Source of the DNA: Methanomassiliicoccaceae archaeon
GTDB taxonomy: Archaea > Thermoplasmatota > Thermoplasmata > Methanomassiliicoccales > Methanomethylophilaceae
Direction: 5' to 3'
Assembly (NCBI GenBank): GCA_016281925.1
Contig: JAEEJP010000081.1
Coordinates: 1 to 34,371, forward strand
Length of the DNA stretch: 34,371 bases
The stretch's first letter is position 1, and each line of letters begins with the position of its first letter. Made by a program: the position numbers and the translations under genes. This document shows positions 6,688 through 24,449 of the stretch, in pieces. The notes under the pieces are model-generated. The model made no database searches. It was not told where the DNA came from and saw only the letters and a program-made list of their open reading frames with translations.

Positions 6688-7515
6688 TCAAAATCTTCCG
6701 GTCGAACTAATAACTGATACATATCGACGTTTTTTCTTCTCTTCGAAATCCAGGATCGCTTCCAGCATATCCCTGAAAGTAGTTTTTTCCGGCACTATCT
6801 GCGGCGGATGCCCCAGCTCCGCGAGCCTCTTGGACGTCGGCCTGCCTATGGCCGCTATGTCGACCGGCGACAGCATCCTGTCTGCCGTTTCAGATCCGTA
6901 GGCGGCCTACAGCTCCTCGATGAAGGACGAAGCGGACATGGGACTGGTGAACGCGATCGCATCCAGCCCACCGGCCTCCAGCGCACCCATTATCGACCGC
7001 AGCTCGGGGGTCATCCCTACTTTCTCCAGGCGGTACGCCGGAAACTCTATGACATCCGCGCCGGCTTCTGCGAGGCCTTCCCTCAGTATGTCCGTCCCGG
7101 AATCCGATCTCACCAGCATGATCCCCTTCCCCCTGGCCAGAGGCGACAGCATAGCGACCACGCCGTACGAGCTGTAATCGTCCTGGGGCATCATATCCGC
7201 ATCCAGTCCGTGCGCCGAAAGGACCTCGGATGTGTGCGGCCCGATGGAAACCTTCGGGATCCCGGAGAAGAGGGACGCCATTTTCGCATCCCCCCATCTC
7301 CCGGAGCAGAACTCGACGGCGGTCCCCGATCCGAAGACGGCGAAATCCACCCTTCCGGATGCCAGAGCGTCCTCCGCCGCGGAATAATCCTGCTCCCCGG
7401 CGGGGACGGCTCTGAGGGAGGGGGCCGCCATGGCCTCCATCCCCAGGGACCCGGCCAGCGACAGCGATTCGCGGATCTTGTCCGCCGGACGGGTGAAAGC
7501 CAGGCGGACGGTCAT
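6688..7515 (-). CDS. hemD: Uroporphyrinogen-III synthase with an in-frame amber (probable pyrrolysine) codon
   Basis: HemD cyclises hydroxymethylbilane to uroporphyrinogen III, the precursor of siroheme, corrinoids and F430. The start (ATG, 7513-7515) overlaps cobA's stop as ATGA. The N-terminus reads LAFTRPADKIRESLSLAGS, and the middle has VDFAVFGSGTAVEFC and DAIAFTSPMSASSFIEEL, all HemD-like. Codon 203 (6907-6909) is TAG. Beyond it the same frame gives AAYGSETADRMLSPVDIAAIGRPTSKRLAELG and MLEAILDF, which match the conserved C-terminal end of HemD (the 'IGPxTAxxLxxxG' block). The gene then ends in TGA. With TAG read as an amino acid it is 275 residues, close to normal. Stopping at TAG would remove the last 73 residues. 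This is the last gene of the operon. Confidence 0.85.
6907..6909 (-). other. In-frame TAG in hemD, candidate pyrrolysine codon
   Basis: The minus strand reads GAG-CTG-TAG-GCC-GCC here, exactly in the hemD frame (202 codons after the ATG). The conserved C-terminal HemD block follows without any further stop until TGA at 6688-6690. Recoding as pyrrolysine is inferred from the second such case in hisD and from the absence of TAG terminators nearby. Confidence 0.75.
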
Positions 7516-16863: not shown

Positions 16864-17265
16864 TCAGGCGAGTTTCTTACCGGCGTTGGGGCTCGCGCTC
16901 TGGTGGTAGACGGATTTCACGTCGAAGAGAAGGACCGCTTTGGTAGGGAGGTGGAGCATCTCCTGGATGTTCTTGTACATGGCGTCGAAGATGGGGCCCT
17001 CGGTGAGCTTGGCTTTGAGCACGGCGTTGACGGTGTAAGCTTCCATGCCTTTGACCGCGGTGAAAGCGGCTTTGGGGTTGCTGTCGATGTTCTGGGCGGT
17101 GACGTCCATGAAGATCTGCGCCACGACCATGGTGCTGTCATCGACGACTCCGATGGTTCCGGCCGGGATCGCATGGGGTTTCCCGTTCTTGCAGGCGGTC
17201 GCGATGATTTTGCACGCGTCTTTGTCGGCGAAAAGGGCTTTGACATTCTCTGGTATGGCTGCCAT
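16864..17265 (-). CDS. Pyridoxamine 5'-phosphate oxidase-fold protein, small (133 aa)
   Basis: The protein starts MAAIPENVKALFADKD and then reads KIIATACKNGKPHAIPAG, the typical first strands of the split-barrel FMN-binding fold in PPOX-family proteins. VVDDSTMVVAQIFM and NIDSNPKAAFTAV follow as further strands. Such small archaeal members bind FMN or F420 and their reactions are mostly unknown. The ATG at 17265 is preceded by GAGGT six bases upstream (17272-17276), one of the few genes here with a Shine-Dalgarno sequence. Two TATA-like boxes lie further up. The frame is open upstream to 17391 but that part overlaps the neighbouring gene and promoter. Confidence 0.85.
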   Translation of the reverse strand: MAAIPENVKALFADKDACKIIATACKNGKPHAIPAGTIGVVDDSTMVVAQIFMDVTAQNIDSNPKAAFTAVKGMEAYTVNAVLKAKLTEGPIFDAMYKNIQEMLHLPTKAVLLFDVKSVYHQSASPNAGKKLA

Positions 17266-17294
17266 TTCTGTACCTCGGAAAGCCATCGGTTTTT

Positions 17295-17315
17295 CGATAT
17301 AAATGTTTATATCAT
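17295..17315 (-). promoter_or_regulatory. Promoter region of the PPOX-fold gene
   Basis: Two overlapping TATA-like stretches are visible on the minus strand, ATGATATAAAC (17305-17315) and ATTTATATCG (17295-17304). The first would give a leader of about 18 nt that includes the GAGGT Shine-Dalgarno sequence, so it is the better fit. Confidence 0.5.
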
Positions 17316-17342
17316 TTTGATACCGACATCCCGAAGAATCCC

Positions 17343-18203
17343 TCAGATCTGTTTGAGATCCCACAGTTTGATGCGGTTTTTCTCCGCCCATCTGGCAGTA
17401 TCCCTGTACAGTCTGGTGTCCAGGAAATCCGCGTCGGAGAACGCCAGCCTCAGCGACCCGCCCAGAGAGCCTTCGTTGAGGTTCCTGGCGTTGAAGGATC
17501 CGAACGTCTTCGTGAGCGCGAGAAGCAATATGGCGACCGTGTCATGGCCCCTGGCCGCGTGCCACGGGTCGGCCAGTTCGCCTTCCTCCTCCCTCAGAAG
17601 CTCCATCAGCCTGCTTCTGGATTCCTTCTGCAGGCCCGAGTTGGATAGGACAGCGTCGATGAGATCCCTCTTGCTGAGGGCGAGCGACCTGCGGTCGATG
17701 AACTTCTCTACGTCCAGATCGCTGAAGTTGAGCTCCAGGCTCAGGCGCATGGAGATGTGCATGAGAAGGCCGATCGGGCTGCTGGATTCCACCAGAACAT
17801 CCCTGACGGGGCCGTACTTCGCTACGAAAGCCTTCAGCTTGTCGCGGTCCGCGTATTCGTCGAGCACATCGTCCAGGGCGTTGCTTCTGATGCACAGCAT
17901 CTCCATGTCCCTGCAGTCGGTGCGGAACAGCGGAGGGGTCTCGCATTTGTGGTCCAGAATATCCAGATCGGCATCGACGATGCCTATGACCTCCGTAAGG
18001 CCCCTGCGGCCGGTCAGCTCCTTGACCGCCCTGCGGACGTTATCCTTGGAGTGGCATTGGACCGTCCTGGCGCCTTCGGCCAGGAACTTGCCGTATACGC
18101 GGTCGTCCGTGACGCCTTCCACCAGGACGAACGTGCCGCCCACGGCGGAGCGCATCATCATGACTTCGTTGCATACGTCGCTGCATCCGAGGCTCTCGCG
18201 CAT
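17343..18203 (-). CDS. DUF4435/TOPRIM-domain protein, AriB-like
   Basis: The first third shows the TOPRIM pattern of DUF4435 proteins: FVLVEGVTDDRVYGKFL with E29, a helix, then GIVDADLDIL with D77 and D79, which would bind magnesium. CRDMEMLCIRS follows, where DUF4435 proteins have a conserved 'DxE' strand. The C-terminal two thirds are helical. In PARIS anti-phage systems the DUF4435 protein AriB is held inactive by the ATPase AriA and, once released, acts as a toxic nuclease. The order here, ATPase first and DUF4435 second on the same strand, matches. The start at 18203 overlaps the ATPase frame by 164 nt; nearby downstream ATGs (18155-18161) would still leave a long overlap. Confidence 0.8.
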   Translation of the reverse strand: MRESLGCSDVCNEVMMMRSAVGGTFVLVEGVTDDRVYGKFLAEGARTVQCHSKDNVRRAVKELTGRRGLTEVIGIVDADLDILDHKCETPPLFRTDCRDMEMLCIRSNALDDVLDEYADRDKLKAFVAKYGPVRDVLVESSSPIGLLMHISMRLSLELNFSDLDVEKFIDRRSLALSKRDLIDAVLSNSGLQKESRSRLMELLREEEGELADPWHAARGHDTVAILLLALTKTFGSFNARNLNEGSLGGSLRLAFSDADFLDTRLYRDTARWAEKNRIKLWDLKQI

Positions 18204-19233
18204 TGTCAGGCTTCATCTCCCTGGCGTTGTCCCACAGGTCGTGGATGACCTGCGGGGAATGGGTGGCCGCGATTATCTGGAGGCCTCTGACCTTGCAGAT
18301 GTCCGAGAATATCGCGCCGAGCTTCTGCTGCCACACAACGTGGAGCGATATCTCCGGCTCGTCGATTATCACAGCGGAGCCCGGCTCGGCATGGAAGAGT
18401 ATCGTGTAGAGCATGATCATTATCTGCTTCTCGCCGGAAGACAGCCTGGAAAGCTGGAGAGCTCCCCCGCAGTCCATGGTCACCGAGATCTTCCCGTTCT
18501 CCAGGATGTCCAAGGTCTTGTTGATGAAGAATTCGTTGATGAGATCCTTGTAGATCACTATGGATTCCGCCAGGATGTAGTTCTTCTCGACGTATTCGGA
18601 TATGGAATAGGCGAGATCCTCGTAATCTTTCCTGTAATTCATCAGCTCGTATCTGGACGGGGGGAATCTGTATCCCGCGGGGATGTCGGGCTCGAATCCC
18701 GCGTCTCCGATGAAATCGAGCTTCGCCTTCAGGTCTTTGCACCAGAATTCGAGCTCCCCGTCGGTCATCTCTTTCCGGGCGCCGGAATACGGGGCAAGCT
18801 CGGAATGCTCGCGCGAATATCTGATGCGCTCGTAAAGCTCCTGGGCATAGGTCTCGAGGGCGGGCGCCAGATGGCCGTCCTTCTTCTTGATTACCAGCCT
18901 ATCCGGAGGTATGTAGGTGACGTCTCCTATCTCGGCCATCTCTTCGGGGGTGATCTCCGTCTCGAGCTCGTTCTTCTGCATCTGGATGAGCAGCTCCCCG
19001 GAATCGTTCTCGATTATCAGGTTGGTGCCGTCCGAGAATCCTATGTCCAGCCTGTCAAAGGGAGTTTCGGAAAGATATCTCACGTCGCCCTTCATAGCGG
19101 CATAAACCATGCGCATGATCGTGCTTTTCCCGAACCCGTTCTGGGCATGGATGAATGTAAGTCCGTCGCACAGATTCAGCGTGTAATCGAACTGGTTGAA
19201 CAGTCCGCTGATGTAGAGCGATTTTATGATCAT
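18040..19233 (-). CDS. AAA-family (AAA_15-type) ATPase, AriA-like
   Basis: The start MIIKSLYISGLFNQFDYTL is typical of SMC/OLD-like ATPases. The Walker A is QNGFGKST (residues 31-38). The signature loop is LSSGEKQIMIML, Walker B is VIIDEPEISLH with D291 and E292, and the switch histidine is H325 in AATHSPQVI. All ATPase residues are present. Paired with the DUF4435 gene it forms a PARIS-like defence module. In relatives the protein usually ends shortly after the THSP block; here it continues about 56 residues with an Arg/Gly/Pro-rich tail that is simply AriB read in another frame. A frameshift or lost stop near 18205-18235 is therefore suspected. The ATG at 19233 lies about 31 nt from a TATA-like box. 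Confidence 0.85.
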   Translation of the reverse strand: MIIKSLYISGLFNQFDYTLNLCDGLTFIHAQNGFGKSTIMRMVYAAMKGDVRYLSETPFDRLDIGFSDGTNLIIENDSGELLIQMQKNELETEITPEEMAEIGDVTYIPPDRLVIKKKDGHLAPALETYAQELYERIRYSREHSELAPYSGARKEMTDGELEFWCKDLKAKLDFIGDAGFEPDIPAGYRFPPSRYELMNYRKDYEDLAYSISEYVEKNYILAESIVIYKDLINEFFINKTLDILENGKISVTMDCGGALQLSRLSSGEKQIMIMLYTILFHAEPGSAVIIDEPEISLHVVWQQKLGAIFSDICKVRGLQIIAATHSPQVIHDLWDNAREMKPDNAREPRMQRRMQRSHDDALRRGRHVRPGGRRHGRPRIRQVPGRRRQDGPMPLQG

Positions 19234-19257
19234 ATGACCGCCGCGCCATCGTCATGC

Positions 19258-19267
19258 GTTTATTTAT
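19258..19267 (-). promoter_or_regulatory. TATA-like box of the PARIS-like pair
   Basis: The minus strand reads AATAAATAAA, about 30 nt before the ATG at 19233. It would drive both the ATPase and the overlapping DUF4435 gene. The divergent repeat-protein gene has its own box at 19292-19302. Confidence 0.5.
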
Positions 19268-19291
19268 TGGATGCCCCCGGCCTCCTGGCGA

Positions 19292-19302
19292 TAAGGTTAT
19301 TT
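19292..19302 (+). promoter_or_regulatory. TATA-like box of the 277-aa repeat-protein gene
   Basis: TAAGGTTATTT lies about 26 nt before the ATG at 19324. An ATG at 19314 is out of frame, so this spacing helps fix the start. Confidence 0.4.
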
Positions 19303-19323
19303 CAGGCTCGCCGATGCGGTGCC

Positions 19324-20157
19324 ATGGATACAGAGGCGGAATTCGCGGCCGTACGCGGAGACATAGCGCAGGGGCGGCTGTCCGAAGTCCCGGCGAAGAT
19401 CAGAGCCATCGCCGAAGAAAGCGGCGACCCTTTCACTGCCGTCAAATGCATCTCCCTGATGGCGGCGATAGGGGACAGATCCATCATGAAAGAGCTGATC
19501 TCCATCGCCGAAAGGACCTCGTCGGACGACGAAACGAAGCTTCAGGTCGCCATGGCATTGAGGAGCCTCGGGTTCCCGTCCAACGCTTATGGCATGCTCA
19601 AAGGCATCGGGAAGACGGACAGAGTCCTCAGGGCATCGGCCGAATCCCTGTCTGACATGGAAGAATACGAATCCGCCCTGTCCTGCCTAGAATCCATCTC
19701 GGAGCCCACTGTCTCCGACAGATGCCTCATGGCCGGGACGCTCAGCTCCCTCGGCGAGCATGCGGCGGCCATCTCCGTGTCCACGAAGCTGATCGGGGAG
19801 TTCCCCGGCGATTACGGCGCGGGAGTGGCTTACGTATCCTCCCTGATATCCGCTGGCAAACAGAAGGAAGCGATCAGATACGTCCGCGCCAACCTAAAAG
19901 AGAAGACCGCCGATTCCTACGCCCTGGCGGCCTATGCCATGTGGGTCGCCGGAAACTCCAAATCCGCCGGCGCATACGCGTCCAGAGCGGTCAATATGGA
20001 CCATGCCCACATAGGTGCGATGGAGACGCTCGGGCTCAGCCTCGCCGAGAACGGGGAGACTGACAAGGCACGCATCGTCGCCGGGGCGATAAACGAGATC
20101 GCTCCCGGGAACAGGGCTGCCCTGAACATACTGTCGTATTGCGACCTCAGAAGCTGA
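19324..20157 (+). CDS. TPR-like helical repeat protein (277 aa)
   Basis: The whole protein is built of alpha-helical pairs with TPR-style spacing, for example AMALRSLGFPSNAYGML, MEEYESALSCLESI, LGEHAAAISVSTKLI and AGKQKEAIRYVRANL. At least six units can be followed. It has no signal peptide or membrane segment, so it is probably a cytosolic scaffold or adaptor. The ATG at 19324 fits the TATA-like box. The frame is open much further upstream, across the opposite-strand ATPase and DUF4435 genes, but that part is antisense reading and was rejected. It converges on trkH with 2 nt between the stops. Partner unknown. Confidence 0.8.
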   Translation: MDTEAEFAAVRGDIAQGRLSEVPAKIRAIAEESGDPFTAVKCISLMAAIGDRSIMKELISIAERTSSDDETKLQVAMALRSLGFPSNAYGMLKGIGKTDRVLRASAESLSDMEEYESALSCLESISEPTVSDRCLMAGTLSSLGEHAAAISVSTKLIGEFPGDYGAGVAYVSSLISAGKQKEAIRYVRANLKEKTADSYALAAYAMWVAGNSKSAGAYASRAVNMDHAHIGAMETLGLSLAENGETDKARIVAGAINEIAPGNRAALNILSYCDLRS

Positions 20158-23153: not shown

Positions 23154-24449
23154 ATGAGCAGCGAAAAATCGGATTCCGCAGGAAAACCAGCGAAATGGAA
23201 GGAAGTAGACGAGGATTTTTGGAAGGCCAACCGCGAATCCAAAGTCGGCCAGGTTGCCGACACCGTCCGCGAAATCATCGAGATGGTCCGCGAAAAAGGG
23301 GACCAGGCCCTCATAGAGCTCGCGGAGAAGTTCGACAAAGTCATGCTCGAATCCGTGGAGGCGACGCGGGAAGACATCGAGTCCGCATACGAAAAAGTGC
23401 CTCAGGACGTCGTAGACGAGCTCGAGAACGCGGCCTACAACATCCAGCGCTTCCACGAGATGCAGAAGCCGGCCGACATGTGGCTGAGGGAGGTCGAGCC
23501 GGGGATAACGCTCGGGGTCAAGTCCACCCCTCTTGAGAGGATCGGATGCTATGTCCCGGGAGGCCGCGCCTCCTATCCCAGCACGGTCCTGATGACCGTG
23601 ATCCCGGCGAAGGTCGCCGGAGTCGACGAAGTCATCTTCTGCACCCCTCCGAACCCCAATCCGATCACTCTGGTCGCGGCCGACATAGCTGGGGCCGACG
23701 AGATCTAGTTCTTCGGGGGAGCCCAGGCGATAGCTGCTATGGCCCTGGGCACCGAAAGCATAGAGCCTGTCCAGAAGATAGTCGGGCCCGGAAACGTCTT
23801 CGTGACGGGCGCCAAGATGATGCTCAGGGACAAAGTGGAGATCGACTTCCCGGCCGGGCCGAGCGAAGTCGCGGTCCTGGCGGATTCCTCGGCCGATCCG
23901 GAGCTCGTGGCCTCCGAGCTGGTCGCCCAGGCTGAGCACGACCCCTCCTCCGCCTGCCTGCTCGTCACCACCGACAGCACCCTCCCTGACAAAGCCTGGA
24001 AACACATGGAAAAGATGATCATGGAGACCCCCAGAAGGGAGATCATCACCAAAGCCATGGGCAATTCCGGATATATCGTATGCGACGATCTGGACCTCGC
24101 CATCGAGGTCATGAACGGAATCGCGCCGGAGCACCTGTCGATACAGGTCCGCGATCCTCTTGACGCCCTCGGCAAGGTCAGGAATGCAGGATCCATCTTC
24201 GTCGGCCCGTACACCCCCGTCGCCGCCGGGGATTACGCTTCCGGAACCAACCACGTCCTGCCCACCGCCGGTCACGCCGCCGTCTCCTCCGGGCTGAACG
24301 TCGCCCACTTCATGAAGACCTCCACCGTCCAGTACATGTCCAGGGAAGGCCTCGCCGCCATCGCGAAGACCATAGAGACCATATCCACCGCCGAGGGCCT
24401 CCACGCCCACTGCGAATCCGTCAGGATAAGGAACAGAGAGGAAGATTGA
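23154..24449 (+). CDS. hisD: Histidinol dehydrogenase with an in-frame amber (probable pyrrolysine) codon
   Basis: HisD catalyses the last two oxidations of histidine synthesis. The first 184 codons carry DEDFWKANRES, GDQALIELAEKFD, PLERIGCYVPGGRASYPST and FCTPPNPN. Codon 185 (23706-23708) is TAG. The same frame then gives FFGGAQAIAAMALGTES, VQKIVGPGNVFVTGAK, DFPAGPSEVAVLAD and AQAEHDPSS with the zinc ligands. IAPEHLSIQ with the catalytic Glu-His and HAHCESVRIR end the protein, followed by TGA. With TAG read as sense the protein has 431 residues, the normal HisD length. The TAG falls where relatives have a hydrophobic or aromatic residue, just before the GGxQA motif. It lies one base before ppk1. 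Confidence 0.9.
23706..23708 (+). other. In-frame TAG in hisD, candidate pyrrolysine codon
   Basis: The frame reads GAG-ATC-TAG-TTC-TTC-GGG-GGA here. Conserved HisD sequence lies immediately on both sides and no base insertion or loss is needed to join them. This argues for decoding of UAG rather than a broken gene. The amino acid is inferred to be pyrrolysine; the tRNA and synthetase genes are not in this window. Confidence 0.8.

Follow-up and report, generated by a model that had tools for sequence, protein, structure and literature searches.

The hisD gene of the window, the 34,371-nucleotide stretch of DNA from a Methanomassiliicoccaceae archaeon analysed here, carries one in-frame TAG codon within an otherwise complete histidinol dehydrogenase (HisD), and this UAG is most probably read as pyrrolysine (Pyl). 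The comparison with relatives suggests that the residue at position 185, a tyrosine, drifted to Pyl through a tolerated mutation; that Pyl is actually incorporated is what we infer from the genes present and from the pattern of TAG codons in this genome and its relatives.

The gene occupies positions 23154–24449 on the plus strand. Translation of this frame gives a single internal stop, a TAG at codon 185 (23706–23708), and a terminal TGA at 24447–24449, and the product would have 431 residues if UAG is read. The Pfam HisD profile (PF00815) spans the TAG, matching positions 4–410 of 411 with 541 bits (cut-off 27), and the NCBIfam hisD profile (TIGR00069) is matched over positions 1–393 of 393 with 515 bits (cut-off 244), confirming the claim of an earlier note that one TAG interrupts an otherwise complete HisD. 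Beyond the TAG the frame stays open for 246 codons (23709–24446), which has a probability of ~1.6e-4 for independent bases at the GC content of the window, and homology to HisD is continuous throughout. This part contains the QAEH, APEHL, AGDYASG and AEGLHAH blocks, which we take to be responsible for catalysis and zinc binding. The blocks QAEH, PEHL, AGDYASG and AE-LxAH align with the solved HisD chain 1k75, placing the presumed catalytic and zinc-binding blocks beyond the TAG, where the earlier note had put them. The predicted RNA fold 3′ of the TAG is nothing special (z-score −1.56). The hisD of the window is the only HisD match in the genome (1.96 Mb, 85.9% complete, 122 contigs), and HisG and HisF are present in the same genome with no internal stops. 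The gene is flanked on one side by a trkA-like gene on the opposite strand and on the other by a polyphosphate kinase gene.

To describe the relatives we refer to the genome of the window as G000 and to its closest relative, with 94% HisD identity, as G029. HisD was matched in 93 of 100 genomes (G000 and 99 relatives), some of the 93 matches being fragments. Named relatives found through HisD are mostly Methanomethylophilaceae or Methanomassiliicoccales metagenome-assembled genomes (MAGs), with rumen or gut as the source of many, which suggests that G000 itself belongs to a Methanomethylophilaceae methanogen. Of the 93, G000 alone has a stop within HisD that held up; stops flagged in G017 (TAA), G020 (TAG), G038 (TGA) and G058 (TAG) were rejected, none of them lying inside the aligned stretch on re-alignment. 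Among the 29 best-matching relatives, codon 185 is Tyr (TAT or TAC) in 28 and Phe (TTC) in one, and it is TAT in G029. Twenty further HisD loci, several from the same genomes as the 29, all have Tyr or Phe at this codon, as do two more distant relatives, G038 (Tyr) and G058 (Phe). The aligned residue is Phe in chains 1k75 and 4gic and Tyr in 4g07, chains that we take to be the HisD of E. coli, Burkholderia and Brucella, respectively. The residue replaced in G000 HisD is thus a conserved aromatic that precedes the first Gly of GGAQA by three positions, and the guess of the earlier note that a hydrophobic or aromatic residue next to GGxQA had been replaced turned out well. Unlike the catalytic Pyl of MtmB, MtbB and MttB, UAG is not kept at codon 185 across the family (Tyr or Phe in 29 of 29). 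The known catalytic and zinc residues of HisD presumably align elsewhere than codon 185. Since a conserved aromatic is replaced and the catalytic and zinc residues presumably lie elsewhere, Pyl in HisD is more likely tolerated than needed, a reading already given in the earlier note and one that fits the Tyr or Phe of every relative whose codon was read.

Constraint on the part of hisD beyond the TAG matches that in G029, its sister without an interruption. With changes polarised by G018 and G026 as outgroups, the G000 branch has one nonsynonymous and 41 synonymous changes downstream of the TAG, and four and 22 upstream; the G029 branch has three and 34 downstream, and one and 24 upstream. This constraint gives no age for the TAG, and a recent origin would be compatible with it.

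The same genome encodes a complete pyrrolysine system. A gene for tRNA-Pyl with anticodon CUA (L062:1371-1441) lies directly upstream of pylS; no other tRNA with this anticodon turned up in the 58 stretches sampled (781 kb, ~40% of the genome). PylS scores 255.8 bits against TIGR02367 (cut-off 178); a profile search gave no match to the family of the PylS N-terminal domain, consistent with the shortened PylS described for this order in the excerpted text of PMC3941956. PylB is found in two halves, one matching profile positions 6–178 of 347 at the end of contig C94 and the other positions 193–347 at the end of contig C8, each alone below the whole-protein cut-off. PylC and PylD, both above cut-off, come next after the C-terminal half of PylB on contig C8. 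Furthermore, MtmB, a methylamine methyltransferase and the classic example of a Pyl protein, has a TAG at codon 201 within a full-length profile match (1–450 of 450). All of pylT, pylS and pylBCD, which the earlier note had named as a check on its view that UAG is probably pyrrolysine, are therefore found in this genome, with PylB split over two contig ends, and these genes support that view.

The TAG of hisD is no isolated oddity, as other housekeeping genes of the same genome contain TAG, one of them in the window. This gene, hemD, encodes uroporphyrinogen-III synthase (6688–7515, minus strand) and has an in-frame TAG at codon 203 (6907–6909, minus strand), which is spanned by a Pfam HEM4 match to residues 22–251 of the read-through frame. 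It sits in a tetrapyrrole operon with genes for GlutR, ALAD, PBG deaminase and tetrapyrrole methylases. In G029, the sole relative with a hemD copy to compare, hemD is an open frame with GAG (Glu) at this codon; hemD was sought beside hisD in ten members of the genus and was matched in none of the ten. Elsewhere in the window, a 1084-residue frame on the plus strand (16903–20157) overlaps a minus-strand frame (18040–19233) that matches AAA ATPase domains; the plus-strand frame is interrupted by four in-frame stops in G029 and belongs to no clear family.

Several TAG codons are shared with relatives. In a HAD hydrolase gene (L083:110-877, minus strand), TAG is present at codon 212 in five of 30 loci of the genus (G000, G029, G026, G018 and G006), which include the three nearest relatives of G000; the locus of G012 has TAG at codon 187, and the remaining 24 loci have no stop. 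A Pfam domain spans the site, and the 43 codons beyond it are kept alike, with five nonsynonymous and 14 synonymous codon differences between G000 and G029. In a DUF7065/7064 gene (L079:1649-2527, minus strand), a TAG at codon 269 is common to G000 and G029, with a Pfam domain across the site, and in 15 other loci this codon is Glu (12) or Gln (3). An ABC ATPase gene (L095) has a near-terminal TAG common to G000 and G029, with 93% identity over the 27 residues beyond. Base errors are a most unlikely source of such recurrent sites, and it is hard to account for them as pseudogenes. The shared TAG codons are stronger evidence than the counts of private stops given below; as the genes that carry them were picked from calls ending at TAG, they show that TAG is read in the lineage, not how often.

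Further TAG codons distinguish G000 from its relatives. The archaeosine synthase gene arcS (L070:13321-15015, plus strand) has TAG at codon 377, where 27 of 28 relatives have Glu and one has Gln. An unnamed gene (L082:11898-11996, minus strand) has two in-frame TAG codons at which G029 has Met and Gln, and its G029 counterpart has no Pfam match. Conversely, codon 153 of feoB in G029 (L121:16407) is an in-frame TAG, against AGG in G000. Two candidates were not counted as TAG genes: a TBP-like gene (L066:5954-6982), for which the match was too weak, and the gene for RNA polymerase subunit A″, RpoA2 (L064:17254-18729, minus strand), for which the profile begins beyond the TAG. At the latter locus a 99-codon stretch ending at TAG lies in frame immediately before subunit A″, and this TAG, common to G029, either closes a gene of its own or is a site of read-through.

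For a count of in-frame stops, 58 stretches of G000 totalling 780,997 bases, the window among them, were set against 873,110 bases of G029. A stop was counted if it had at least 30 aligned residues and at least 65% identity on each side, and if at least half of the differences were at third positions; overlapping calls were removed. Under these criteria, which were settled once looser lists were already known, the G000 stops facing G029 sense codons comprise seven TAG, no TAA and no TGA; the comparison covered 284 orthologue-like alignments with 89,562 aligned residues. The seven sites fall in six genes, namely hisD, hemD, arcS, a gene of the pseudouridine synthase family, an ABC ATPase gene and the unnamed gene with two TAG codons. 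From codon usage, TAG should account for ~52% of new stops, and seven of seven gives P = 0.011 by site and 0.021 by gene, in a comparison that was not blind, hisD being the given finding and some G029 stretches having been fetched for hemD. Leaving out hisD and hemD, five of five sites in four genes are TAG (P = 0.040 by site and 0.075 by gene).

The reverse comparison gave two TAG (one of them in feoB) and two TGA among G029 stops in 279 alignments, which shows that ordinary stops occur as well. The two TGA sites, counted nonetheless, fall between Pfam domains of the corresponding G000 proteins (CbiX and Mur ligase; TPR and rubrerythrin) and may be gene splits. Pooled over both directions, nine of 11 stops are TAG (P = 0.046), or seven of nine without hisD and hemD (P = 0.12). 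A looser G000 list, for which both flanks had to be at least half identical, held four TAG and two TGA; these two TGA sites were dropped, one having an upstream identity of 0.39 and the other downstream differences that are not at third positions. Earlier lists of private stops, which contained antisense shadows, frameshifts and length differences at gene ends, were set aside, and a scan of shared stops (32 TAG, 8 TGA and 5 TAA) was left unused, many of its TAG rows apparently being antisense shadows, complements of the Leu codon CTA. The G000–G029 counts lean towards read-through and are no proof of it.

TAG also appears as a terminator. Among crude G000 gene calls at rising score cut-offs, 46 of 619, 30 of 501 and 17 of 385 end at TAG (7.4%, 6.0% and 4.4%), some of these being internal TAG codons; the corresponding fractions in G029 are 3.4%, 2.6% and 0.6%. 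For comparison, the excerpted text of PMC4153887 gives 1.6% of genes ending at TAG in M. alvus and 11.3% in M. luminyensis. Calls ending at TAG run on into a coding-like frame more often than others, in 12 of 46 cases vs 48 of 573 in G000 (P = 7e-4) and in 10 of 20 vs 51 of 560 ending at TAA or TGA in G029. With a stricter gene score, the run-on comparison gives six of 30 vs 41 of 471 in G000 (P = 0.05) and P = 0.005 in G029, and plain distance to the next stop is not significant in either genome (P = 0.09 in both).

The confidence placed in Pyl rests mainly on the pyl genes and the shared TAG codons, so that dropping hisD and hemD from the count left it unchanged. The step that most calls for proof is the TAG base of hisD itself, because it is known from one assembly: the codon is private to one MAG, 85.9% complete. 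An error at this base, with a true codon TAT or TAC (Tyr) and an ordinary HisD, is unlikely in our judgement; it would take a single base, as TAG is one base away from the TAT or TAC of relatives, and the assembly, a MAG in 122 contigs, is fragmented. Yet random errors would yield TAA or TGA in ~48% of cases and all seven qualifying G000 stops are TAG, and the TAG codons of the HAD hydrolase and DUF7065/7064 genes are found again at identical positions in genomes that were assembled separately, arguments that concern the genome as a whole, not the single base in hisD. If the base is correct, UAG could still be a real stop, and a recent nonsense mutation could have truncated hisD in a strain that needs outside histidine. 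The TAG is found in G000 only, and a gut community may supply histidine, but we regard such a truncation as quite unlikely: the genome encodes tRNA-Pyl and PylS, which should suppress UAG at least partly, HisG and HisF are uninterrupted, and one nonsynonymous against 41 synonymous changes accumulated downstream on the G000 branch, although a very recent mutation would look alike.

Read-through of UAG might also insert an ordinary amino acid, for example Tyr or Gln, if a near-cognate tRNA or a suppressor tRNA decoded it, and Tyr would restore the residue of the relatives; with tRNA-Pyl as the sole CUA tRNA in the 781 kb sampled, this is very improbable. That HisD is made as two polypeptides, by re-initiation at the ATG at 23739, 30 bases past the TAG, is extremely improbable: an open reading frame from 23739 to 24449 does have an ATG start, but in relatives its Met simply forms part of the GGAQA-AAMA block, and the break would fall inside a domain spanned by one profile.

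Under the preferred reading of UAG as Pyl, UAG would be contested between charged tRNA-Pyl(CUA) and release factor. Once a point mutation had turned codon 185 of hisD from Tyr (TAT or TAC) into TAG, full-length Pyl-containing HisD would be made, not the truncated product alone. The change would have been tolerated and not selected for catalysis, as it affects a conserved aromatic beside GGAQA and presumably no catalytic residue. The same drift would have put TAG into other genes of the genome, and the pyl genes would have become a requirement for making histidine.

Amber codons in core genes are already published for this order. For 'Candidatus Methanomethylophilus alvus', Borrel et al. (2014, PMC4153887) describe 16 genes with in-frame amber codons apart from those of the methylamine methyltransferases, genes of core enzymes included, and suggest that suppression of UAG by tRNA-Pyl keeps such mutations stable. 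M. alvus resembles G000 in order, in having a complete pyl system and in its amber core genes; hisD, hemD and arcS are not named in the excerpted Table 7 of predicted Pyl proteins, and the branch-specific constraint test made here has no counterpart in the excerpted account (PMC4153887). The ruminal ISO4-H5, of the same order, has 46 genes with in-frame amber codons, including methylamine methyltransferases and 10 insertion sequences (PMC5011839). It likewise has amber housekeeping genes, for example those of adenylate kinase and phosphoglucose/phosphomannose isomerase, and hisD is not named among its amber genes in the excerpts of that account (PMC5011839). In the literature collection searched, pyrrolysine and histidinol dehydrogenase together brought up reviews of non-canonical amino acids and no report of a Pyl-containing HisD; nor do the excerpts of PMC11363022 and PMC9723677 hold anything on HisD, and the terms sought are absent from PMC9499178.

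Judging by its title, a 2009 study by Heinemann et al. reportedly ascribed Pyl in the tRNA-His guanylyltransferase Thg1 to neutral evolution. Thg1 with Pyl, also mentioned in the excerpted text of PMC8211752, is likewise an enzyme other than a methyltransferase and offers a neutral-evolution precedent; it acts in tRNA maturation in some Methanosarcinales, whereas HisD here acts in histidine biosynthesis in another order. The G000 case can also be set against a broader recoding. Kivenson et al. are said to have described, in 2025, an archaeal 'Pyl code' with TAG as a sense codon throughout. Use of TAG as a general Pyl sense codon would be common to both; TAG still ends a few percent of crude G000 calls, and full reassignment is not established. 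It is possible, and we put it forward tentatively, that UAG is an ordinary Pyl sense codon proteome-wide in this lineage, and that core anabolism (histidine through HisD, tetrapyrroles through HemD and tRNA modification through ArcS) is pyl-dependent.

The hisD case is testable, with one TAG, one known residue in relatives (Tyr) and one easily assayed enzyme. In such genomes, a gene caller for which TAG is a stop will report hisD, hemD and genes like them as broken, which may lead to false auxotrophies. If the reading as Pyl is true, hisD is a clear case of an extra amino acid spreading via tolerated mutations, HisD would be completed only when pyrrolysine is made and charged, and growth would be tied to decoding machinery whose supposed purpose is the use of methylamines. 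If UAG were moreover an ordinary sense codon, the pyrrolysine system would be essential even without methylamines.
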